Source: a virus
Length of the DNA stretch: 20,338 bases
Virus record (IMG/VR): IMGVR_UViG_3300029787_000431
Location: 1 to 20,338 of that record
Strand: one strand, 5' to 3'
Part shown: positions 1 through 20,202 of the stretch, one piece after another
Position numbering within the stretch: the first letter of the stretch is position 1
Layout of the letters: the number at the start of each line of letters is the position of its first letter
Translations under genes and position numbers: made by a program
The notes under the pieces: model-generated
What the model was told of the DNA's origin: nothing
Database searches by the model: none
Seen by the model: the letters and a program-made list of their open reading frames with translations, nothing else

Positions 1-1692
1 TGTTGCTGTACTTGATGTAGACGCGTCTAGTGGGTGCGCTATTGATAAAGTAGCTGTTCTAGCGGTTGCGCCAATTGGAGATCCAAGATGATTTATTTGA
101 TCTTGATTTCTTATAGCTATAGGATGCTTAAACATACCGCTAGACTGTCCACCTACTTGATCCCAACCAGTAGATTGAGGAATAACCCAGTCTTTAGGGG
201 TAGGCGAGTCTATAGGATATTGACCTTGAATAATGTTTAAAGGTATTTCTTGCATCTGAGCTTGAGTAACATTTGTGTTAGTAAAAGCGTAAACGTAATG
301 TGTTATTCCTTGCGTTTCACCTAAAAGTGTTTCATCACCTCCGTATACAAATATTGGTTGAGGTCCATTGTTACTAGGTATAGCTTCCCACTCTGTGGCA
401 AGAGGACTAACGTGACTTATTACTTTTCCAGTAGAAGTAAAAACAGCTTCATTACTAGTAAAGTTAAAGTCGTAGCCTGAGGCTACATAGTTGTCGTATA
501 ACAATTCTATAGAGTCTACACTGTCTGTAGCTATTTTTAATAATATGTATGGAGTTTCTTGTTGATATATAGTAAAACTTGTTCTTAATATTAAAGGATA
601 TTTATTGTCTCTTACCTCGACAGTTAAAGTTCTATTAGCTAAACCAACATCAATAGCATTTACATCAAAGAAATATTCATATTGATTACCTCCTAAAAAA
701 ATTGTAGACGCATCTCCAGCTTGCGCCCAGACTGCACTAAATGTAAAAGTAACATCGTCAGAAGGTATATTGTTTACTACAAAAGTTTTTGAAGCTTCAC
801 TTGTTGAAGTTGCAGCCCCATCTAATGCATCACCAGCACCTGTAGCACCAACTATCATTTGATTATTTCCAACATTAGCAATAGAATATGGGCTAGAGTT
901 TTGATAACAACTATACGTGGTATCAAACTGTACTTCGCTAGGGCCTTCGCTATCTCTAGTGTATGTTAGTCTAAATATATATGAGTATATATTATCAAAC
1001 TGATCGTTAATAGTTTCAATAAGATTCCAATCAAACGCGCCGGCATTTGGAATATTGTTTCCGGAAAGAATAATGGTTGGATCGTTGATGAAAGATCTCA
1101 TACCTTCAGTGCTACTAGCTGAAAACTTTATGTCGCATACCATTAATGGGCCGTCTTGTGTAGCTGCAAAACTAATAATACCTTGATCTTGGTTTGGATA
1201 ATTAGGGTTAGAATTAGAAATAAAGTTAAAGTTTGAAACTTGAGCAACACCAGGAATATTTGAAAAAGGTAAAATATCTGCAACAACATTGCTCCATATA
1301 GTATCTGCATTTTGATTACTAAACGAAGGGGCAATATTAACTTCAACTAAAGTAGAGTTTACGTCATAAACTTGATTAACATCATCAAATTTTATAACTA
1401 AATTAAAATCTATATCATCTGTTAATGTAGTGTTTGCAGCCCAAGTAATGTTTACATTAACTTTATTGTCCGCTGCAAATCCTATTGTAGTGTTTGAAAA
1501 AGTAATACTAGTTATTTCAGCGTTGTTTTCTAGTATTTCTTCAAGATACTCTTCATCTATGCTAAATTGAGACTCTGCTATAAAATAACCTTCAGCTGGA
1601 GATATTAAAAAATTAGACTGAAGTATACCGGCAACACCTACTTGAGTTATGTTGTTTATGTCTAATCCTTGTGATGATAATATATTTGGCAT
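1..1692 (-). CDS. Large beta-rich tail/structural protein, 3' end cut off by the window
   Basis: An open frame runs from an ATG at 1692-1690 to the window edge with no stop, giving at least 564 residues; the C-terminus is missing. It begins MPNILSSQGLDINN and starts 11 bases after the stop of the muzzle gene, with an AT-only leader (AAATTAAATT) and no Shine-Dalgarno. The protein is rich in Asn, Thr, Ser and Val, with many alternating hydrophobic stretches typical of beta-sandwich virion proteins (for example TVEVRDNKYPLILRTSFTIY), and has no signal peptide or membrane segment. One Glu-rich helical-looking stretch (IDEEYLEEILENN) lies near residue 45-57. I recognise no enzyme motif. Its position after the muzzle suggests a tail appendage, fiber or surface protein; that role is inferred from context only. 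The reading frame is well supported, the function is not. Confidence 0.72.
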   Translation of the reverse strand, partial: MPNILSSQGLDINNITQVGVAGILQSNFLISPAEGYFIAESQFSIDEEYLEEILENNAEITSITFSNTTIGFAADNKVNVNITWAANTTLTDDIDFNLVIKFDDVNQVYDVNSTLVEVNIAPSFSNQNADTIWSNVVADILPFSNIPGVAQVSNFNFISNSNPNYPNQDQGIISFAATQDGPLMVCDIKFSASSTEGMRSFINDPTIILSGNNIPNAGAFDWNLIETINDQFDNIYSYIFRLTYTRDSEGPSEVQFDTTYSCYQNSSPYSIANVGNNQMIVGATGAGDALDGAATSTSEASKTFVVNNIPSDDVTFTFSAVWAQAGDASTIFLGGNQYEYFFDVNAIDVGLANRTLTVEVRDNKYPLILRTSFTIYQQETPYILLKIATDSVDSIELLYDNYVASGYDFNFTSNEAVFTSTGKVISHVSPLATEWEAIPSNNGPQPIFVYGGDETLLGETQGITHYVYAFTNTNVTQAQMQEIPLNIIQGQYPIDSPTPKDWVIPQSTGWDQVGGQSSGMFKHPIAIRNQDQINHLGSPIGATARTATLSIAHPLDASTSSTAT

Positions 1693-7004: not shown

Positions 7005-7877
7005 TTAATGTTTAATTTGTTTAGATCTACCTCTTAATACTTGAGTTATTTCTTCTATTTTTATGTTTGAAAGTCTTAGTTTGGCTTGACGCTTCGTAGC
7101 TCTAGCTTCTTTTTTTAATCTTTCTATTAATCTATTAGGCATGTTTGCTTTAGTAGATACAATAGCGTAAGCTATATATTTATATAAAGCTTCTTCTGCA
7201 AATTTATGAACTTGCATTTCAGCATCAGTACCTAAGCTATCGCTTATATATTTTAGTATTATAGTAACACCTGAAAGGTTAGAGCTAAAGTGTATTTTAC
7301 CTCTTAATTCATCTATATAAAAAGATCCGTTTGTTTGTGCAAACTGAGGGTCTAAGCCGTACCTTTGACCCAGATTATAATCTACTATATCGTCGTCATA
7401 ATCAAAGTCGTCCATGTTTTCTTCTGAAGGAGAGCTTGCTTGGTAATTAGCCCAAGTATCTGAGTCAGATGTTTGTATTTCATTACTTGAAAAAGTGTAA
7501 GTGCCGTCTGCGTTTTGAGTTATTTTTTCTGGATTACTACTAACTCTAGCTGGATGTATAACGTGCTCTATACCTGCTTTGTCTGACCAAGTTAATTTAA
7601 CATAGTTAACATAGTCTTGAGGCAAAGTCATTTGCAATGTTGTTGGCACAGATATTTCAAAAGCTTTTGTTGATTTAAAAGTATCAAAACTTAATTCTTG
7701 CAAACCTCGTTTAGCATGAAAAACAACATCAGTTCTTTTTATTTTACTTATTATTTTATCTTCTCCAACGTATGCTATTATAAATTGATCAATAACATTT
7801 TTTAATGAAGTAAATTGATAACCACCTAAGTTGTTACCACCGTAATACGCGCTACCTGTTTCGTTAATTAAAGGCAT
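7005..7877 (-). CDS. Tail tubular/connector ring protein (gp4-like fold family)
   Basis: This 290-residue protein resembles tail tubular proteins of podoviruses and the ring proteins of crAss-like phages, which form a ring below the portal that extends and seals the channel. The helical N-terminal block (residues 20-70: GYQFTSLKNVIDQFIIAYVG, KRTDVVFHAKRGLQELSFDT) is followed by a beta segment with the typical LPQDYVNYVKLTW (85-97). A C-terminal helical block (217-290) contains HKFAEEALYKYIAYAIVSTK and a basic tail (RLKKEARATKRQAKLRL). An acidic loop at 151-166 (SEENMDDFDYDDDIVD) lies between them. It sits three bases from each neighbour: the CBM-bearing ring protein upstream and the muzzle downstream, the usual connector order. 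The start is ATG with an AT-rich leader. The exact ring layer cannot be set from sequence alone. Confidence 0.8.
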   Translation of the reverse strand: MPLINETGSAYYGGNNLGGYQFTSLKNVIDQFIIAYVGEDKIISKIKRTDVVFHAKRGLQELSFDTFKSTKAFEISVPTTLQMTLPQDYVNYVKLTWSDKAGIEHVIHPARVSSNPEKITQNADGTYTFSSNEIQTSDSDTWANYQASSPSEENMDDFDYDDDIVDYNLGQRYGLDPQFAQTNGSFYIDELRGKIHFSSNLSGVTIILKYISDSLGTDAEMQVHKFAEEALYKYIAYAIVSTKANMPNRLIERLKKEARATKRQAKLRLSNIKIEEITQVLRGRSKQIKH

Positions 7878-7880
7878 ATA

Positions 7881-9077
7881 TTATGATTTTTCTTGTTGAA
7901 CTTCTTTGTTATCTTTACTCTCAGCAAATCCTTGTATATCTTGTTTTTGCATTGCAACACCAGCTAACTCTAATATTTTATTTACAATAGTTACGGTTTC
8001 AGACTGATGTAATTCAAAGTTAACAGAGCTAGCAGAATCATACATTGCTTGCTCGTTAACAACAGTATAGCCCCAATTACATTGAGTAGGCTTAGCTATA
8101 TAATTATAAGAAACACTACTAACACCTACGCTAGAAGGGTAAAGTGAAATTGAAAAGTCTCCTATCGTTCCAGTGCTACTTTTTTCTAATACATAAACTG
8201 GATTTGTAGTTGAAGGCTTGGTTAAAGGTGAAGAGTTTACATATATTAACTCGTTTGGCAATACTTTATCTACTTCAACAAATTCGCCTGAAGAGTTTGT
8301 AAATAGTATTGTGCCTAGTCTATATATATCGCTATTAAGTGAAATTTTTCTACTACTTACTTCGCTAACTTCTACATTATCAAACAAAGCAAAATCAGCC
8401 GCGCCGGTGTTACCATTGCCAGATATAAATAGCTTTAAATTAGTAAAGTTTCCAACAGCGCTAGCATAAACTTCTAAAGTACTATCAAATCCAGGCCCAA
8501 GAGTTGGCGAAGGAATACCATTAAAAAGAACTCCAGCAGTAGCTGTAGCGTTAGTTCCAGTAGCATTTAAGCTGGCAGTATTTACGCTTGCTCTAGCTCT
8601 ATATAAAGTTCCAGCAGTTGTAGCGACAGCTTGAGTTGTTCTAAACACATTGTTAGCGGCGTCGTTTTCTAGCTTTAAACTTGCGGTACCGGCATCATGC
8701 GATTGACTACCTCCATTTTCTGTAGCAGAAACACCCGCGGTAAAACCAGTGATGTCATCATCAAAAGTTCCATTTGTAACTAGATTAGCTCCAAAAGTAG
8801 CTAAATAGCCAGGCGTGTTTACAGTAGAAAGAACTGTAGTTTGATTACGTTTAAATATAGATATTTTTTCATCAAGACCCTCTAGCATATCAGAATATTC
8901 GGTATCATTACCGTGAGTCCTGCTAAATTGATTTATATCATAAAAATATTGCCCAAATATTTCTAGTTGAGCTTGATTAGCAAATAAGTTAAACTCTTGA
9001 GGTGTAATATAACCTCTTTGCTCTTTGTTGGCGATTGCCAAAACCCTTTGATATACCGTATCTATACTTATCGCCAT
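7881..9077 (-). CDS. Connector/tail ring protein with an inserted carbohydrate-binding-like domain
   Basis: A 398-residue protein in two halves around an insertion. Residues 1-85 (ISIDTVYQRVLAIANKEQRG, YITPQEFNLFANQAQLEIFG) and 240-380 (KISLNSDIYRLGTI, ELIYVNSSPLTKP, NPVYVLEKSS, SYNYIAKPTQCNWGY) fit the pattern I know for ring/stabilization proteins of crAss-like and related marine phages, where these halves are normally close together. Residues of about 97-239 separate them and look like a CBM4/9 or galactose-binding jelly roll: NLVTNGTFDDDITGF at its start and ALFDNVEVSEV at its end, rich in Thr, Ala, Gly and Asn. It lies between the 291-residue virion protein and the tubular ring protein, so a structural place at the connector is likely. 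ATG start with an A-rich leader. The last 20 residues are charged and probably disordered. Confidence 0.7.
   Translation of the reverse strand: MAISIDTVYQRVLAIANKEQRGYITPQEFNLFANQAQLEIFGQYFYDINQFSRTHGNDTEYSDMLEGLDEKISIFKRNQTTVLSTVNTPGYLATFGANLVTNGTFDDDITGFTAGVSATENGGSQSHDAGTASLKLENDAANNVFRTTQAVATTAGTLYRARASVNTASLNATGTNATATAGVLFNGIPSPTLGPGFDSTLEVYASAVGNFTNLKLFISGNGNTGAADFALFDNVEVSEVSSRKISLNSDIYRLGTILFTNSSGEFVEVDKVLPNELIYVNSSPLTKPSTTNPVYVLEKSSTGTIGDFSISLYPSSVGVSSVSYNYIAKPTQCNWGYTVVNEQAMYDSASSVNFELHQSETVTIVNKILELAGVAMQKQDIQGFAESKDNKEVQQEKS
8358..8789 (-). other. Inserted CBM/galactose-binding-like domain inside the ring protein
   Basis: This stretch encodes roughly residues 97-240 of the ring protein. 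Its borders are the NLVTNGTF opening and the FDNVEVSEV closing, both typical of carbohydrate-binding module 4/9-type beta sandwiches, where the last strand often reads as a variant of hFDNVxVxEh. The sequences flanking it join into a normal ring-protein region. Calling it a carbohydrate-binding domain rests on pattern memory; ligand residues cannot be placed from sequence alone. Confidence 0.6.
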
Positions 9078-9143: not shown

Positions 9144-10019
9144 TTAGTTTAACCGCTTTTCAATATTAGAGTATATCTCCATACCTTCATCAGTTTTAAA
9201 CCATGCAGCTAGCGCAGAATAAGGATGTTCGTCAAATGGAACTGTCATTAGCTTTCTGTCGTTTGAACCCCAACTAAAAGTTCTTTGATCAGAAGATAAT
9301 TTTATAATACCTGACTCTGTAGCTCTAATACCAAAGTTTCTAAGAACTACATTTTCATCATTAACTAATTCTAAGAACAAACTAGGATTTCTCTTAGCAT
9401 ATAATAGCAAATCTCTTCTAAGCTCTTTAGAACTCATCTCTGCTACTTTAGAACCTACTTCTACTCTCATGATAGCTTCAGCCATATCAATATCAATGTT
9501 CTTAGCAGCATTTAAAGCTTCTATTTCTATTTCTATGCTTTCTATTTCACTAACAGCGTTTGCAACTGGTTTTTCTTCATAAAACAATTTGTCTCTATCA
9601 GGGTGATATAGTGAAAGAAGTTTTTGTAATATTGTTTTTTCTCTTTCAACTATTAGCATGCCATTTCTAAATACAATATGTTCTAGTCTTTGATCGCCTT
9701 TCATTTCATCTACAAACACTGTTTTTTGATTTTGACAATATTTAAGTTCTCTTTCATAACCTTTTTCTTCGTCAAACCAATGTATGTTTGCAGATCTAAT
9801 AGATCTTGATAGCGGTCTTTTTTTACCTACTAACCTATATATTCTATTTTTTATTTCCCAACCGTCTTCTAGAGTCTTGTATTTTTTTTCTACTCTCTTT
9901 GGTTTTTGTACAACTAGAGCTTCTTCAACAACAGTTTCTTCAATAGTAATAGGTTTCATCTCATTAGTAGCTTTTACTTCAGGTGCTACTTCAACCTTTT
10001 TAGCTTGTTTTTTTGCCAT
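9144..10019 (-). CDS. Virion-associated protein of unassigned role, downstream of the capsid gene
   Basis: A 291-residue protein whose first 50 residues are a Lys/Glu/Val-rich low-complexity segment (MAKKQAKKVEVAPEVK and on). A mixed alpha/beta region follows with KTLEDGWEIKNRIYRL, ANIHWFDEEKGYERELKYCQ and LEHIVFRNGMLIVEREKTIL, then LLSLYHPDRDKLFYEE, an Ile/Glu-rich helix (AVSEIESIEIEIEALNAAKN), and a C-terminal block ending EGMEIYSNIEKRLN. I do not recognise a named family, though similar proteins recur beside the capsid gene in marine phages as I remember them. It stands between the post-capsid terminator and the ring genes, so it may be a capsid accessory, head-completion or internal cargo protein. 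It has an ATG start and an AT-only leader. It follows a strong terminator, so it needs read-through or a promoter of its own; I could not identify one in the 60-base gap. Confidence 0.7.
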   Translation of the reverse strand: MAKKQAKKVEVAPEVKATNEMKPITIEETVVEEALVVQKPKRVEKKYKTLEDGWEIKNRIYRLVGKKRPLSRSIRSANIHWFDEEKGYERELKYCQNQKTVFVDEMKGDQRLEHIVFRNGMLIVEREKTILQKLLSLYHPDRDKLFYEEKPVANAVSEIESIEIEIEALNAAKNIDIDMAEAIMRVEVGSKVAEMSSKELRRDLLLYAKRNPSLFLELVNDENVVLRNFGIRATESGIIKLSSDQRTFSWGSNDRKLMTVPFDEHPYSALAAWFKTDEGMEIYSNIEKRLN

Positions 10020-10081: not shown

Positions 10082-11587
10082 TTACTTCATTAACATGAAG
10101 TTGTTAGCAGCTTGTGTCACTAAACATCTTTCAGATAAATAGTGAACTTGCATTGCATCAAGCGCAGATGTAGTAGCTCCAACAGAACCAGTAACCCAAG
10201 TCTTCATTCTTCGGTCATCAGTTTGAGAAGCTCTATAACGTACGTGTAAGAAAGGACGTTTAAGGTTCTTTCCTAAAGCTTGATCGTAAACAGAAGATAC
10301 ACCAGCTGGAATAATAACACCACGGATAGCTGCGCTACCTGCTCTATCGTTAATACCACCACGTGTAGCTTTGTCGTTTAAGTAACGGAAGTCAGACTTA
10401 TAGAAGTCATAAGATCCTCTACGGAAACCAGAGAAGCCTAAGTTTAATGCCATGTCTTCAGAGTTATCAAATACACCGTAAGATGTACCACCAGCTCCGT
10501 AAGAATTCATAGAAGCTAACATATCGTCCATAGCCAAGCTTGTAGCACGGTTAACAAATAACATGTTTTCTTCAATAGCACCCTGCTTGTCAAACTCTGC
10601 TAAGATAGCGTCAAACTCAGCTAAATCAGTAGCAGGGTTAACACCAGTTACACCAGAAGTAAGATTACCTCTTGATTCAATAGCAGCGAATAATCCTTCA
10701 GTACCAGAACCACCGGCACCAGAATCAGCAGCGCCTCTAATCTGTCCATCGTCACCAAAGCCGATGATAGAGTTAGCAACTGTTAATTCACCTTCTAACA
10801 TAGACATTTCTAAGTAGTCAGTAAAACGAGCTCTTGTGTCACCTTCAGCTTTTAAGTACCAGAAGTAACCGCTTTGTCCTTCTTCACCAGAAACTTCAAC
10901 CCAACCAATTTGAGCAGCATCAGATCCAGAGATCTCATAGTAGTCTTTCATTATGATTGGCTTGTTAGTAAATGATTTGAAAGTAGGAGTAAGAGCTTGT
11001 CTCTTGCTAGATCTAAAAGTACCAGTATCATCTGTATACTCTTGACCTTTTCCGTACTCAGAACCAATAACTAATAAAGTAGCAGTTCCGTCAGCAAGTC
11101 CTGCGGCAGTACCTGTAGCCTCTGAATAAGGCTCAAAGCTTACAACAGCAGACTCTGGAGTTTCAACGATAAGAGCTTTAACAACAACACCCGCTTGCGC
11201 GATTAATACAGTGTCGTTAGTTCTAATACCGTGATTAGCTACAACAAATCCATCAGCTAAAACGTTACCGTCGATGTCAGATGTTACAGTAAAAGTACCG
11301 TTAACATCACCGTCAGCGTCAACAGTTCCGATGTAAGATAAGTGTAAACGTGATTGTTCAGACCAGACAACTTGATCAGATGTCATAGCCTCTTCAGCAC
11401 CTACTTGAGAAAGAAACCCTGAGATAGTTCTGTTTCCAAAAACCTCAGCTTCTTTTTCCATAAGTTCTGGCAAGTATTGTTGAGCCCAGTCATTACCTGC
11501 GCCCGTAAAATCAATGTAATTGCTAGCAAGCGTTTGCTGCTGTGGAGCAGCTATGCTGTTTAACAATGGTCCATTAGTAATAGCCAT
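10082..11587 (-). CDS. Major capsid protein (HK97-fold, crAss-like type)
   Basis: The 501-residue protein has features I associate with crAss-like and related major capsid proteins: an N-terminal helix region with LMEKEAEVFGNRTISGFLSQ (42-61) and SDQVVWSEQSRLH (70-82). A beta-rich inserted segment follows at about 90-175 (SH3-like in appearance: HGIRTNDTVLIAQAG). Near the C-terminus come GFRRGSYDFYKSDFRYLND, IRGVIIPAGVSSVYDQALGK, KRPFLHVRYRASQTDDRRMK and the final CLVTQAANNF. It builds the icosahedral shell. It lies after the scaffold-like gene and just before a strong terminator. Codon choice differs from its neighbours (TTC, AAC, AAG, GAC and CGT favoured in the stretches I read), as expected for the most highly translated virion gene. 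ATG start, AT-rich leader without Shine-Dalgarno. No separate prohead protease gene is present between portal and capsid. Confidence 0.92.
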   Translation of the reverse strand: MAITNGPLLNSIAAPQQQTLASNYIDFTGAGNDWAQQYLPELMEKEAEVFGNRTISGFLSQVGAEEAMTSDQVVWSEQSRLHLSYIGTVDADGDVNGTFTVTSDIDGNVLADGFVVANHGIRTNDTVLIAQAGVVVKALIVETPESAVVSFEPYSEATGTAAGLADGTATLLVIGSEYGKGQEYTDDTGTFRSSKRQALTPTFKSFTNKPIIMKDYYEISGSDAAQIGWVEVSGEEGQSGYFWYLKAEGDTRARFTDYLEMSMLEGELTVANSIIGFGDDGQIRGAADSGAGGSGTEGLFAAIESRGNLTSGVTGVNPATDLAEFDAILAEFDKQGAIEENMLFVNRATSLAMDDMLASMNSYGAGGTSYGVFDNSEDMALNLGFSGFRRGSYDFYKSDFRYLNDKATRGGINDRAGSAAIRGVIIPAGVSSVYDQALGKNLKRPFLHVRYRASQTDDRRMKTWVTGSVGATTSALDAMQVHYLSERCLVTQAANNFMLMK

Positions 11588-12844: not shown

Positions 12845-15262
12845 TTATCTAGGTTCAAATCCACCTAAATCAAATCCACCAAGTGTATCATTACCTGCAG
12901 ATTCAAAACTTTTAGGTGCGCCACCTGTTTTTCTTTGTTCAATAAGCTCGCTTTGTTGTGACGCTTGAATTTTAGTTCTTTCGTCTTTTCTATCTTCTTT
13001 TTCTTTTTCTTTACCTTTTAAAGCTTCAACTTCCATTTGCTTAAGCTGCATGTTCATTTGAAACTCTAGCTGCATAAGCTGCTTTTTAACTTCAGCTTCT
13101 TGATTTAATTTTTGAGCATCTAACTGTCCTTGTAATTGGGCTAGCTGGGCTTTTGTTTGAGCCATAACTTGTTCTTTCTGCGCTTCAAGTTGCGCAGCAT
13201 TTTGAGCGGCTTGCGTGTTAGACTGCGTTTGCAACTGTATGTTTCTTTCTTGCATTTGTTGGTCCCGCTTCAGTTTTTCTTTTCTTCTTATTTTTAATAG
13301 TTGATTAGCAAGAGTAACATTTCTTATTTCTCTAATATCTATAGCATCTTCTAAATCAATATTTTTTTGAGCTAAAGCTTGTTGAATATTATTTTCAAGC
13401 AAAGCTTTTTCTTCTTCATCTGGTGCTAATTCTAAAAATATACCAAAGTCATAAAGATGAAGATTACTCATTTCTTCTAAAGTTCCTACGTTATGAGAAC
13501 CTATTGCTTCTATAAAAGCCTCTCTAGTTGGAGAGTATTCTATAACGTCTGATATTCTAAGAGACAGAGACTCTGCGACGTCACTAGATAAAAATAAACC
13601 AGCTTGAAGTATATGTCTAGTAGCAGTGTTTGAGTTTGCTGCAGCTAGCTTTTGTATACCAACTAAAGCGTTTGAGTCTGGCGTGCTGCCATCTCTAGCT
13701 TCGTTAAGCCCTGTTGTATCTCTAATCATCTGTAAGTAGTAATTGTAATTAGCTATCAAGCTTTGCATTTTACCTCCACCGTTACTACTTCTTATTTCTT
13801 GTATAGGTACTTTACCAGGATTCATATCACCATCAGCAGTCATTGATCTACCAATAACACTACCTGTTTGGAAGAACATATTTAAAGCTTCTTGTGGATT
13901 ATAGTTTGTGCCGTTGCCTAAATCAACCTCAGCTAAACCGTCAGCATCTAAATAAACACCATCAGGCACCATACGCGACATTACTTGTTGTAACTTCAAG
14001 TGTGTTAATTGTATCATGTCAGCAAAACCAGTAATACGACTAACTAGAGACTCTATACGACCTTTATACATACGAGGTGCAACTATAGAATAATTCATTT
14101 TAACTTTAGTATAATCGCTTTTTGGTCGCATCATGTTTTTTGACATTTCCCATTTTAAAAGCTTTTCAGTACCTAGCACTAAAGCGCCTTCGTACAAGCA
14201 CTCTACATTTCTTTGTATTTTAGAAAAGTTTGCTTCAGGATTTTCTGGTGGATTAAATGTATCATCTTTTTCAATTGCTTTTTCCATACCTGAACCAGTC
14301 TCTTTTACTTTGTAGACTTGGTTCATATACGTCTTATAATTAAAATATAACACTCTAACTTTGTTTGAATCTTCTTTTTCGTTAGAATAATTATCTGGCT
14401 TTTTGTTAGGGCCTTTTTGTATTTGTTCTAAGTCTTCTTGTGTTAAGTGTGGAAACTGTTTAGCAAGTTCATTAATAGGTATAGACTTTACTTCTCCAAC
14501 ATAATATATGTCATCAAAGTACGGTGACTCAGTATAAGAGTAAACTAAATCTGCAGGATCTACATAATCTATAGTAATGCCTTCAGATGTATTAAAATTT
14601 GTTTTAACTGCACCAATACCTAAAACTGTTAAATCGTAATAAAATCTTTTTTTAGTAAGCTCATATTTGTTGCCTTCAAATAATACTCTTAACGCTTGTT
14701 CTTCGGCTAGCTCTACAGCTTGTTTGTAAGAAAGCTGCATGTGAAGTTTAAGTTCTTCTTGAGTTTTAGGTAAAGTCTCAGGATCATTCTCATACATATT
14801 TAATCCAAACGCTTTGCCTACGTAATCGTTAAACTCTTGAGTTTTCATATCTTTAAGTACAGACTCCATATACTCAGTTCTTAAACTAACTCCGTATGGA
14901 TCTTGAGAATATGCTTTTATATCGTAAGTTCTTTCAGCAATACCATTAACAACAATATCAACAAACTTAGGTATTATTGGCACTGGCTTCCAGTCTAAGT
15001 TTAAATAACTTAAATCGCCATTAATAGATAACTCATCTTTATATTTTTGTATAGACTGTTCACCTCTAGCGTATAATCTTAAATTATGAAAGTTTCTTTG
15101 ACTATGACCGTGCATGTTATAGCTAGATCCTCTATGAGACGTATTATCACCATACCATTCACTCTCTATAGCTCTTGCTACTTTTAAACCATAGTCATAA
15201 CTAACTTTTTCTATATCACTTACTACTTGGCTTGGAAAATAACTATTACCAGAATATGCCAT
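12845..15262 (-). CDS. Portal protein with a long Gln-rich coiled-coil C-terminus
   Basis: The 805-residue protein lies directly after the terminase (two-base gap) and before the scaffold-like gene. Portal proteins form the dodecameric ring through which DNA enters and leaves the head. Family-like segments are PVPIIPKFVDIVVNGIAERT near residue 95, DLTVLGIGAVKTNFN with YVDPADLVYSY near 210-245, YKGRIESLVSRITGFADMIQ near 410, and TGLNEARDGSTPDSNALVGI with NSNTATRHILQ near 515-550. Residues of about 650-780 are a Gln/Ala/Lys/Glu-rich coiled coil (LEAQKEQVMAQTKAQLAQLQ and similar), followed by a Gly/Phe-rich tip FESAGNDTLGGFDLGGFEPR. The coiled coil is longer than in short portals and may reach into the capsid interior. 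ATG start with an A/T leader. Confidence 0.93.
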   Translation of the reverse strand: MAYSGNSYFPSQVVSDIEKVSYDYGLKVARAIESEWYGDNTSHRGSSYNMHGHSQRNFHNLRLYARGEQSIQKYKDELSINGDLSYLNLDWKPVPIIPKFVDIVVNGIAERTYDIKAYSQDPYGVSLRTEYMESVLKDMKTQEFNDYVGKAFGLNMYENDPETLPKTQEELKLHMQLSYKQAVELAEEQALRVLFEGNKYELTKKRFYYDLTVLGIGAVKTNFNTSEGITIDYVDPADLVYSYTESPYFDDIYYVGEVKSIPINELAKQFPHLTQEDLEQIQKGPNKKPDNYSNEKEDSNKVRVLYFNYKTYMNQVYKVKETGSGMEKAIEKDDTFNPPENPEANFSKIQRNVECLYEGALVLGTEKLLKWEMSKNMMRPKSDYTKVKMNYSIVAPRMYKGRIESLVSRITGFADMIQLTHLKLQQVMSRMVPDGVYLDADGLAEVDLGNGTNYNPQEALNMFFQTGSVIGRSMTADGDMNPGKVPIQEIRSSNGGGKMQSLIANYNYYLQMIRDTTGLNEARDGSTPDSNALVGIQKLAAANSNTATRHILQAGLFLSSDVAESLSLRISDVIEYSPTREAFIEAIGSHNVGTLEEMSNLHLYDFGIFLELAPDEEEKALLENNIQQALAQKNIDLEDAIDIREIRNVTLANQLLKIRRKEKLKRDQQMQERNIQLQTQSNTQAAQNAAQLEAQKEQVMAQTKAQLAQLQGQLDAQKLNQEAEVKKQLMQLEFQMNMQLKQMEVEALKGKEKEKEDRKDERTKIQASQQSELIEQRKTGGAPKSFESAGNDTLGGFDLGGFEPR

Positions 15263-15264
15263 AT

Positions 15265-17475
15265 TTATTTTATTATTTTAGAAGTAAAGCCATCGTTTTT
15301 ATATTTAGCTATACCTAGGTTTATTTTTTGTTTTTTTCGACTAGCTGTTGGTCTATATAAGTTTTTATTACAAGCCATGATAGCTAGCCCTGAGCTTATA
15401 GAGGCATCGTGTTTTGTTCTTTTGTTTATATCAAACTTTGCCCAGTCATTTAATGTTTCATTAAAGTAAACACTACCGTAATTACCATTTTGCAAATGAC
15501 CAACATGATCGTTTATATACATTTCAATAGCAGCAGCATGAGCTTGTTTTATATCTTCGCTTGAGTTTGGTATACCACCAACTTCTTTCTCAGAAGTACT
15601 AAGCTTGCTCCATATTTTATCAGGTCTATTCATACTAAATCCTCTATAGCCTCTTCGCTTAAAATAATAAAGTAATCTTGGTTTATTGTTTTCTGCAAGT
15701 AATGGCATGCCGTAAAAAACACAAGCCATAAGAACATCTTCAAAAAATATTTCAGCGGTTTGTGGTCTAGCTATATATTCTAGAAAAAGCTGGTTTGCCG
15801 GCGCATTATCCATGCTAAATTTAGTTAGTCCATGAAGAGATCCGTTGGATCCTCTACCATCAACAGTACCGCTAATATCATAGCTATCGCAACCAAAAGC
15901 GCCAATATGCTCATTTCCAGGATATTTTATTCCATTTTTAAGTATTACTCGGTTTTGTAAATTTCTATCAGGAATCCAGCTAACTTTAAATCTACCGTTA
16001 GGATCTGGGTGAAATATAACTTGAGTGTCTTTAACACCATTAGCCCATTGAAAAGCTCCTTGAGTAACTACAGAAGAGTTTCTATTACCTTCGTTGTAAT
16101 CTATTTGCTCGTATATTTTTACAAGATTAAACAAACTATTTTTTGTTTCATCTCTAAATGCATGCTCTTCAGTTCTTGGAAACTGTCTGTAAAACTCATT
16201 TAAAGCATCTTGATCATCTTTTAATCCTTGAGCTTCATTTTCCCAATGATCAATAACGCCTACATCTATTAATTCACCATCTGGTCCGAATACATCATTG
16301 CTAGGGTTATTAAATACTGGTTGTCCATGTTCGTCAATAAATCCTTCAAAGTTCCATTCCATTGGCATAAACAAAGAATATAAACCAGATTTTGTCTGTC
16401 CATTTCTATTTCTACTTCCGACGTCTGAGTCATTATATAATTTTTTAAAGTTATCACCACCTTTGTCTAGCGAGTTGCTAGTAGATCCCATCATACACTT
16501 GCCAATTACTCTACTACCTAAACGCAAACAAGTTTTAGTTACACGCCAGTTATTTAATATATTATCAGGTCTTTCCCATTTACCGCTTTCATCGTGAACT
16601 AACAAATTAAGCTTTTCACCGTCATAGCTGTTATCACCTGTATTTTTCCAATCAATAGTAGTATCAAGTCCAACCAACTCTTCCTGCTTTTCGTTCGCAG
16701 TAATTTTCCTACGCGTAAACTTACTCGCAGGAACCCTATAAGCAAGTTCACTTTTAGGTCTGTCCATACCATCTTGTATAGGTTTGAAGAAAAACGGATA
16801 GTTAATAGATATTGGTACAACTTTGTCGGTAAACATTTTTTTAGCATCTGCTCCTGATTTTGATAATATGCCATATCTTGCATCTGAAGATATTGTAGCT
16901 TGATTTACTGTTTCTGCGGAAGACATAAAAGAAAAGCCGCTACGTCTGTTTTTTAAATAACACATACCGTAGCAGCGCTTATCTGCTTTACAAGCCTCCC
17001 AAAATATATAGAATAATCTATTAGCTTCTCTAAAGTCTGGCGCGCCTACATCTATTTTGCTCCATTGCAAATACATATAATGGCTACCAGTAATATACGT
17101 AGGCTTACCGTTATTCATAAACCAAAAGCCTTCGTCACGACGTTTAAACTCTTCGTCTATATAATCGTACCATTGCTCTTTTGCTTCTTCTGGATAACTT
17201 CTCCAGTCAAATATGTTTTTTAACTTGCCTAGCTCTTTAGGATATTCTATTTTTTGCCATTTATCTACTTTGCCGTGCAACTTCCCTGGCACTCCTGGCA
17301 GCGCAATTCGCAAACCTTGGATCTCAAGTATTTCACCGATTCTTCCAGTTTTAGAAATAACAACAATATCATTTTCTTCATTATATCCATATTTCCATTT
17401 TTTAGATTTGTTAAGTCGACTCATAGTAGTCTTCTTAACTGGTTCAACAATTTTATATAGCGTTTGTTCGTACAT
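15265..17475 (-). CDS. terL: Large terminase subunit (packaging ATPase and nuclease)
   Basis: This 736-residue protein drives DNA into the procapsid and cuts the concatemer. The ATPase has a deviant Walker A, KNRRSGFS at 175-182, with the lysine at the front of the loop as in lambda gpA-type terminases. Walker B is LLVHDE (291-296), with catalytic Glu296, and a motif III-like GSTSN is at 330-334. The RNase H-like nuclease probably uses Asp530 and/or Asp533 (AFGCDSYDISGTVDGRG), an acidic residue at 579-580 (FFEDVL), and Asp690 (KRTKHDASISSGLA). The length fits crAss-like terminases. The ATG overlaps the upstream stop as TAATG, so translation is probably coupled to the preceding small gene. Three cysteines (162, 168, 172) cluster just before Walker A; I know no role for them. 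Confidence 0.96.
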   Translation of the reverse strand: MYEQTLYKIVEPVKKTTMSRLNKSKKWKYGYNEENDIVVISKTGRIGEILEIQGLRIALPGVPGKLHGKVDKWQKIEYPKELGKLKNIFDWRSYPEEAKEQWYDYIDEEFKRRDEGFWFMNNGKPTYITGSHYMYLQWSKIDVGAPDFREANRLFYIFWEACKADKRCYGMCYLKNRRSGFSFMSSAETVNQATISSDARYGILSKSGADAKKMFTDKVVPISINYPFFFKPIQDGMDRPKSELAYRVPASKFTRRKITANEKQEELVGLDTTIDWKNTGDNSYDGEKLNLLVHDESGKWERPDNILNNWRVTKTCLRLGSRVIGKCMMGSTSNSLDKGGDNFKKLYNDSDVGSRNRNGQTKSGLYSLFMPMEWNFEGFIDEHGQPVFNNPSNDVFGPDGELIDVGVIDHWENEAQGLKDDQDALNEFYRQFPRTEEHAFRDETKNSLFNLVKIYEQIDYNEGNRNSSVVTQGAFQWANGVKDTQVIFHPDPNGRFKVSWIPDRNLQNRVILKNGIKYPGNEHIGAFGCDSYDISGTVDGRGSNGSLHGLTKFSMDNAPANQLFLEYIARPQTAEIFFEDVLMACVFYGMPLLAENNKPRLLYYFKRRGYRGFSMNRPDKIWSKLSTSEKEVGGIPNSSEDIKQAHAAAIEMYINDHVGHLQNGNYGSVYFNETLNDWAKFDINKRTKHDASISSGLAIMACNKNLYRPTASRKKQKINLGIAKYKNDGFTSKIIK

Positions 17476-18799: not shown

Positions 18800-19849
18800 T
18801 TAAAGACTTACAAAGCTAATATCTCCTGATAAGTCTGCGCCGGTTTTCATATAATCAACCATATTATGATTTAATGGATAGTATAATACAGGTGGTAGAG
18901 CTTTTGGTACTACAAACGCACTATCATTATTAACTGTCTCTCTGTAATCGTTAAAGTTTCCACTATTGTATAATGCCGTTGCTTGTGAAGATGATAATTC
19001 ATAGTTAAATACAGCAAAGTCTCTTATACGCATAGATGATAAAGTTGAATTATATGCAGTTGAGCCACTGTTATAAGCACTTGTTTTTTGTCTATAAGTT
19101 CCTATGCCAAGAAAGTTTGCGGTATCATTTGTAAACTGAGGATCATCATCTCCTGTGCCAATATCTATGTTCATACCTAGAGATGTACCATTCCAATAAA
19201 CGTCCCAAGCAGCACCACCTGTTTGTTCACCTCTAGTAAAAACTAAATGAACATAACCTTCAGTATTAGTGTTGCCAGGATTATCTGTGTCCCAAAGACT
19301 GTTAGTGCTGCTACCGCTAGACCCTGTACCTGTTGTACCGTTAACATCGTGCATAGCTCTTTGAGTGCCAGCCCTATCAGTTCCACCATCTAAAAGAACA
19401 GTAATCCTATTTCTAAAGCTACTACCACTTCTATAATTTAAATAAGCAAGAATAGACATATCGCCACCTAAAGCATTAGATGTATTCATTTGAAATAAAA
19501 TTAAATTAGTAGTTCCGTTTGACCAATTACCACTTGAAGCACTGCCTGAATGACTCCATGTAGGTTTAATCCACATTGAAAAACCTATCTTGTCGCCAAA
19601 GTCAGCGTCTGTAGTTAATAAATCTTGTATTGAAACTCCACTGTTTTGAGTGCCTAGTTCTGTAATATTTCCATCGGCAGCTAATTGTAATCCGGGTTCA
19701 AAGTTATAACCAGCAATTCTTTCGCCATCTGTATAATTGCCATCAAACTCGTGCCCGTTAGTTTGACAAGCGTGAGTCGCAGCCCATTCATAGCGATTTG
19801 CGTTATTGCTAGGTTTTACACTAGATAAAGAAGCGTTTAATCCTATCAT
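18800..19849 (-). CDS. LamG/concanavalin-like domain protein, likely surface adhesion or glycan binding
   Basis: I choose the ATG at 19849 (MIGLNASLSSVKPSN, 349 residues) because it overlaps the previous stop as TAATG and has GGAGA a few bases upstream; the longer frame begins with a TTG. Residues of about 85-298 have the LamG-like jelly-roll pattern: KIGFSMWIKPTW (88-99), EGYVHLVFTRGEQ (197-209), WDVYWNGTSLGM (215-226), NFLGIGTYRQ (245-254), and the closing MRIRDFAVFNYELSSSQATA (273-292) with LYNSGNF. Such domains bind glycans or act as decoration on phage heads and tails. There is no signal peptide. A Gly/Ser/Thr/Asn-rich stretch at 160-197 may be a flexible loop. It sits upstream of the packaging genes, away from the tail genes. 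Ligand unknown. Confidence 0.78.
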   Translation of the reverse strand: MIGLNASLSSVKPSNNANRYEWAATHACQTNGHEFDGNYTDGERIAGYNFEPGLQLAADGNITELGTQNSGVSIQDLLTTDADFGDKIGFSMWIKPTWSHSGSASSGNWSNGTTNLILFQMNTSNALGGDMSILAYLNYRSGSSFRNRITVLLDGGTDRAGTQRAMHDVNGTTGTGSSGSSTNSLWDTDNPGNTNTEGYVHLVFTRGEQTGGAAWDVYWNGTSLGMNIDIGTGDDDPQFTNDTANFLGIGTYRQKTSAYNSGSTAYNSTLSSMRIRDFAVFNYELSSSQATALYNSGNFNDYRETVNNDSAFVVPKALPPVLYYPLNHNMVDYMKTGADLSGDISFVSL

Positions 19850-20202
19850 TAGTCTCCAAAATAACAAATTATACCACCATCAGCGTCTGCAGCTGGAGTA
19901 ACACTTGTCCATCTACCAAATATAGTAGAGCCACCAGGAAATTTAGCGCCAGATAAAGCTAAACCACCATCACCGTGGTCAGTAGCATTAGTACCTGACG
20001 TGTCTTGCTCGTGAGCAGCTGAAACTGTATTAAAATACATTAATGGATCTTCAGACACTAAAGCTCCAATTGTATTATCAGCTATAAAATATATAGCTAT
20101 TATAACTTTTCCCGCTGGAGGTGTTACTGCTGTAGCAGTATCACAATAAGCGCTTCCTAACTGTCCAAATTGATAAGCTACTTCTGTTGAATTTATTCCC
20201 AT
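19849..20202 (-). CDS. Small beta-rich phage protein of unknown role
   Basis: A 117-residue protein starting MGINSTEVAYQFGQLGSAYC. It contains TPPAGKVIIAIYFIADNTIG, SEDPLMYFNT, a His/Asp/Gly-rich loop (EQDTSGTNATDHGDGG), and a closing FPGGSTIFGRWTSV with DGGIICYFGD. The strand pattern suggests a compact beta-sandwich, as in small capsid decoration or fiber-tip proteins. I remember similar short proteins in uncultured marine phages but know no function. Its stop shares one base with the ATG of the LamG gene, so the two are probably made together and may act in the same virion structure. ATG start with an AT leader (AAATAAATAAA). Confidence 0.78.
   Translation of the reverse strand: MGINSTEVAYQFGQLGSAYCDTATAVTPPAGKVIIAIYFIADNTIGALVSEDPLMYFNTVSAAHEQDTSGTNATDHGDGGLALSGAKFPGGSTIFGRWTSVTPAADADGGIICYFGD

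Follow-up and report, generated by a model that had tools for sequence, protein, structure and literature searches.

The window analysed here is the whole stretch of a 20,338-base IMG/VR virus record (IMGVR_UViG_3300029787_000431), the minus strand of which carries, in order, the terminase, the portal protein, one unassigned protein, the probable capsid protein, a conserved protein at the position of crAss001 gp33, a ring protein (hereafter ring A), a probable second one (ring B) and a muzzle-like tail-tip protein (Table 1). With the muzzle-like gene coming after the ring genes, the order agrees with a crassvirus-type tail module, ring B occupying the place of crAss001 gp43 ahead of the muzzle gene, and residues 1583–1668 of the muzzle-like protein match Pfam crAss_MUZ_C (E 3.5e-5) at 24.6 bits against a cut-off of 27. 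The muzzle-like protein has a C-terminal run of about 20 serines, and it is highly divergent among relatives with near-identical capsids (11–28% in most comparisons of residues ~826–900). Directly downstream of its gene, a 564-aa open reading frame (ORF; window 1–1692) runs off the window end and displays, by eye, many beta-type, possibly Ig-like, repeats. Upstream of the terminase block, two overlapping ORFs (window 18800–19867 and 19849–20202) resemble, on visual inspection, a surface protein of the LamG/concanavalin type together with a companion; neither had a Pfam match, and the 355-aa one had no PHROG match.

TABLE 1. Features of the structural gene block and of ring A (window positions).
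Feature	Position	Strand	Basis or remark
Terminase large subunit	15265..17475	-	PHROG 6681, E 5e-173; phage matches
Portal protein	12845..15262	-	PHROG 6547, E 1e-152
Probable major capsid protein	10082..11587	-	Synteny (place as crAss001 gp32); PHROG 13704 virion structural protein, E 1.9e-95
Conserved protein at crAss001 gp33 position	9144..10019	-	PHROG 34748; synteny
Ring A, tail ring (adaptor) protein with inserted domain, 398 aa	7881..9077	-	PHROG 14543; AlphaFold2; Foldseek
Ring A: conserved N-terminal helical part of ring fold, residues 1–83	8829..9077	-	
Ring A: pre-domain linker, residues 84–96	8790..8828	-	Present in group nearest the window, shorter in other carriers
Ring A: CBM4/9-like jelly-roll insert, residues 97–240, 144 aa	8358..8789	-	Fold, profiles, absence from most relatives, selection
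Ring A: post-domain linker, residues 241–248	8334..8357	-	
Ring A: remaining beta domain and C-terminal helices of ring fold, residues 249–398	7884..8333	-	
Ring A: second insertion slot (approximate), residues ~305–322	8112..8165	-	Empty in the window
Ring B, virion structural protein, probably second ring protein	7005..7877	-	PHROG 13977, E 4.5e-45; synteny
Muzzle-like tail-tip protein, 1765 aa	1704..7001	-	Pfam crAss_MUZ_C; crAss001 gp43-gp44 gene order

By terminase, the nearest phage records are an uncultivated Manatee Spring podovirus (65%) and the Flavobacterium elemo phages (46%), with further matches to phages of Cellulophaga, Tenacibaculum and Maribacter; no terminase match lay outside these groups. 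The phage is a relative of the Flavobacterium, Maribacter and Cellulophaga podophages, and likewise of the crAss-type phages; the relatives looked up are classed in Elemovirus, Pachyviridae and Pervagoviridae, and their records place none under Crassvirales. As the cultivated ones among the nearest relatives infect Flavobacteriia, the host is probably a member of the Bacteroidota.

Ring A is interrupted by a block that opens with (A)NLVTNGTFDDD and closes with FDNVEVSEV. The original prediction, made from the DNA letters, had a block of ~143 residues breaking the sequence of a ring protein here, and this was borne out, with exact boundaries as in Table 1 and relatives aligning to both flanks. 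The PHROG virion-structural family 14543 (profile of 234 aa) matches ring A in two separate stretches (the best at residues 1–82, E 8.8e-30), consistent with an interrupted protein. Most IMG/VR relatives lack the block, have a length of 228–254 aa (about 230 aa) and can be aligned with ring A to either side of it, and the ring A counterparts of isolates are short as well (Panino, 230 aa; elemoE, 240 aa), as are, by annotated length and gene position, those of phi38:1 (232 aa), phi13:2 (234 aa) and the Manatee Spring virus (256 aa). The same insert occurs in two other records (L002/L084 and L085, 87–89% identity) and is under purifying selection in these copies (dN 0.054 and dS 0.75 between the window and L002; dN 0.054–0.067 and dS 0.55–0.75 across close relatives, i.e., dN/dS of about 0.07–0.12), which rules out an assembly artefact as its source. 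Among these closest relatives, changes were not significantly enriched in loops (p 0.29).

In viral-contig searches the insert was found in 39 of 246 distinct ring A proteins, every copy in the same slot; because the searches listed their matches in order of similarity, this count is no population frequency. About five-sixths of the distinct ring A proteins sampled thus lack it, and the block, being absent from most homologues, is not part of the conserved ring core. Searches of viral contigs with single inserts led to six loci, and to ring A in all of them; no relatives of the insert were found in the bacterial genomes or phage records searched, nor was the domain carried by any other ORF of the loci then collected. 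No stretch of the insert alignment is conserved enough to serve as a query. The inserts nevertheless fall into two groups, one close to that of the window and one distant, which profile comparison shows to be homologous (E 5e-10), and a profile made solely from distant inserts gave the window insert 101.7 bits, vs. 14.1 bits for the best of 1000 shuffles. In 27 relatives, what looked like a C-terminal extension of 60–320 aa proved to be an alignment artefact caused by the insert.

The AlphaFold2 model of ring A (40-sequence alignment, mean pLDDT 84.5) folds the insert entirely as beta structure, in the form of a beta sandwich, with block pLDDT values of 76 to 96, all but one of which are at least 84. 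Foldseek matched the insert to CBM16 (E 5e-6), CBM4-2 and a porphyran-binding module, and the rest of the window model to the phicrAss001 tail-barrel chains 7qoj_E, 7qoj_D and 7qoj_F. With VIA-align, residues ~95–241 superpose on many carbohydrate-binding domains (Z 13–15, rmsd 2.0–3.2 Å), led by an arabinanase domain (Z 15.1, rmsd 2.0 Å over 127 residues), with CBM16 at Z 14.5 and both CBM4-2 and CBM22-1 among the partners, which corresponds to a jelly-roll beta sandwich of ~140 residues. Profile evidence is in line with this fold: the insert profile matches xylanase Xyn10B in its N-terminal (CBM22-1) region (E 1e-3), and the same-slot inserts of relatives L015 (27.8 bits) and L016 (26.0 bits) reach the curated cut-off of Pfam CBM_4_9 (PF02018; 25.9 bits). 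The window insert itself scores 15.6–15.7 bits, below that cut-off, and we therefore call it CBM4/9-like rather than a member of the family. The suggestion of a CBM4/9-type jelly roll thus stands for the predicted fold and its superpositions, and stops short of family membership for this copy. Neither the full-length protein nor an alignment of it gave useful matches in a sequence search of solved structures. Overall, the block is almost certainly an inserted CBM-like fold within a ring protein.

What the domain might bind is less constrained by its shape. The structural matches include porphyran-, alginate-, xylan-, galactan- and hyaluronan-binding modules, so that the fold names no ligand, and HpiC1-type cyclases also occur among them, the jelly roll having non-sugar roles as well. 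The window insert contains no tryptophan and only two tyrosines, and a canonical aromatic binding platform is therefore not evident.

For the ring core, comparisons from the window model were swamped by CBM matches, and an insert-free relative (L037) was modelled instead (pLDDT 82.4). This model includes the helical bundle and beta domain of the ring fold, and its best match is the phicrAss001 tail-barrel chain 7qoj_D (Foldseek E 4e-9; Z 13.2, 187 residues, rmsd 4.5 Å). Next come the ring proteins of Pa223 and SU10 (Z 9–10; SU10 at Z 9.6), cyanophage A4, GP4, KHP30 and others, whereas T7 gp11 (Z 4.8) and KP32 TTPA (Z 3.9) match less well. On these models, the ring A core is a predicted tail ring (adaptor) protein fold, and a comparison of the window and L037 models places the insert in the loop that follows the first beta-domain strand. 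The original prediction of a connector ring at the head-tail joint therefore holds for the ring fold; since the closest solved ring proteins form the phicrAss001 tail barrel, however, ring A may belong to the barrel, closer to the muzzle, and not strictly to the joint. In sequence comparisons with single crAss001 rings, gp34 came out best (E 0.0076 but a 5% probability), too weak a match to pick a ring.

A later loop of ring A holds a different, unrelated insert in 18 relatives (L024, L045, L069, L180 and 14 others), 60–90 residues long and beta-rich by sequence (FIEAGQTVTGSGIP...TLTFASDDIKCNYIKKP). The second-slot inserts of four carriers matched no Pfam family above cut-off. None of the relatives sampled carries both inserts (39 and 18 carriers), where ~3 double carriers would be expected by chance, which is weak evidence of mutual exclusion between the two types, as the sequences are related to one another.

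Evolutionarily, the insert diverges far faster than the neighbouring proteins: between the window and L005, identity is 89% for the capsid protein and 92% for ring B, vs. 39% for the insert. A quartet of carriers is decisive here. For the capsid and gp33-position proteins, the window pairs with L015 (89 and 86% identity, respectively) and L004 with L014 (87 and 84%), the cross pairs being at 65–71%; for the inserts, the window pairs with L004 (53%) and L015 with L014 (71%), the remaining pairs being at 17–24%. Capsids nearly 90% identical thus go with inserts 17–24% identical, and capsids 65% identical with inserts 53% identical. As head genes and inserts pair the quartet differently, the insert has moved between head-gene backgrounds (trees, drawn without support values, serve as illustration only). 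Across 13 carriers (L003 being omitted from the Mantel tests because its capsid ORF is only partial), insert distance correlated with muzzle distance once capsid distance was removed (partial r 0.60, permutation p 5e-4), vs. r of 0 with capsid distance once muzzle distance was removed. The insert also covaries with the rest of ring A. Overall, the insert has passed from phage to phage in company with the tail-tip side of the block and without the capsid genes.

With moderate confidence, we read the insert as a laterally swapped, outward-facing adhesion domain that would bind surface polysaccharide. A CBM4/9-like domain plugged into the first beta-domain loop would enter and exit through that single loop and could thus hang off the ring without disturbing its fold, as the model and the insert-free relatives suggest. 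The rings of phicrAss001 are dodecamers, and several constrictions of its barrel are narrower than 50 Å (PMC10172136). By analogy, up to twelve copies of the insert, about 174 kDa in total, would be displayed around the barrel, and for a mass of this size next to such constrictions an outside position is more plausible. The insert loop lies in the beta domain, the equivalent of which is the outward fibre dock in SU10, T7 and KP32; the dock domain is the part of those adaptors outside the helix bundle and, in SU10, has loops that protrude radially (PMC9509320). From an outside position, numerous weak contacts with polysaccharide of the host surface or capsule could keep the virion in place and suitably oriented during muzzle engagement. 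That the insert tracks muzzle rather than capsid divergence is the pattern expected of a host-contact part, although this covariation could instead reflect linkage or assembly contacts; the few aromatics, the sub-cut-off Pfam score, the many relatives without the insert, the non-sugar roles of the fold and the lack of a significant enrichment of changes in loops all count against adhesion. It is tempting to go further and see the tail barrel ring as a receptor-binding organelle, with at most 12 exchangeable sugar-binding domains gripping the host capsule and passed on jointly with the muzzle, the two making up a single adhesion cassette, such that host range would change by a ring-domain swap and not by a fibre, but this is a speculative step and we hold it only tentatively.

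A possible alternative, to which we give clearly less weight than to adhesion, is that the CBM fold is a docking platform that holds a tail fibre, a tail hub or another virion protein on the ring and is swapped along with its partner. The equivalent beta domain of the SU10, T7 and KP32 adaptors is indeed the dock of the long tail fibres (PMC9509320), R1 and R2 of phicrAss001 carry tail hubs (PMC10172136), and covariation with the muzzle and the rest of ring A would follow, as would the lack of an obvious aromatic platform. However, the five-sixths or so of distinct ring A proteins without the insert must attach fibres otherwise, and inserts of 17% identity at capsids of 89% identity exceed what a docking partner would normally need, though fibres also change. 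Less likely still is a purely structural role, in which the domain would brace the barrel, or the junction of the barrel with capsid or muzzle, and never meet the host. The peripheral Ig-like domain of the dodecameric R4C adaptor, credited by its authors with local stability and considered unlikely to act in adsorption (PMC10276861), is a precedent, and the muzzle covariation fits, but a brace would be expected to change with its conserved neighbours, whereas this insert is optional, highly divergent and swapped between capsid backgrounds. We consider it improbable that the domain serves to retain virions where polysaccharide abounds around the cells, as in algal exudate, on particles or in biofilm, and not on the host cell itself: porphyran- and alginate-binding modules are among its structural matches and the nearest cultivated relatives infect Flavobacteriia, but xylan-, galactan- and hyaluronan-binding modules match too, and the muzzle covariation favours a role in cell contact. 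A neutral passenger without function, which the patchy distribution might evoke, can practically be dismissed given the purifying selection and the homology and shared slot kept by highly diverged copies among 39 distinct carriers.

Host recognition in short-tailed phages is usually credited to fibres and spikes, and it is well established that phage structural proteins can bear accessory beta domains. The swappable ring domain suggests, but does not prove, that the virion neck, and not the fibres alone, touches the sugary surface of the host. If the adhesion reading is true, the barrel would join the host-recognition surface of a widespread phage group probably infecting Bacteroidota, and the ring insertion slot would offer a readable genomic marker of host-contact differences among uncultured viruses. 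The open-access literature searched contained no description of a ring protein with a CBM-type insert, nor of such a domain in a crAss-type tail ring being exchanged independently of capsid genes.

Among known systems, CBM16, CBM4-2, CBM22-1 and Pfam CBM_4_9 share the jelly-roll fold of the whole insert and a weak profile similarity; these modules, unlike the insert, ride on polysaccharide-degrading enzymes. The dodecameric head-tail adaptor of roseophage R4C bears a peripheral accessory beta-sandwich domain, as in our reading of ring A, but this domain is Ig-like, N-terminal rather than inserted, and touches the capsid (PMC10276861). Tail tubular proteins of phage OWB bind a host receptor and are needed for adsorption, a precedent that favours the adhesion reading; that receptor is a protein (Vp0980) and not a glycan, and the abstract mentions no inserted domain (PMC7241545). 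SU10 gp11, T7 gp11 and KP32 TTPA (tail adaptor or tail tubular protein A) have the same overall ring fold as ring A, and in KP32 TTPA a lectin-like element that may bind exopolysaccharide has been reported at residues 57–99 (PMC5440376). That element, a short beta-sheet, belongs to the adaptor proper, unlike the inserted 144-aa CBM-type domain of ring A; enzymatic activity has also been claimed for the KP32 protein. Closest in structure are the phicrAss001 tail-barrel rings gp34, gp35, gp40 and gp43 (PDB 7QOJ, 7QOG): although shorter (225–238 aa), free of such an insert and of negligible sequence similarity, they share with ring A the core fold and an order of ring genes followed by the muzzle gene.
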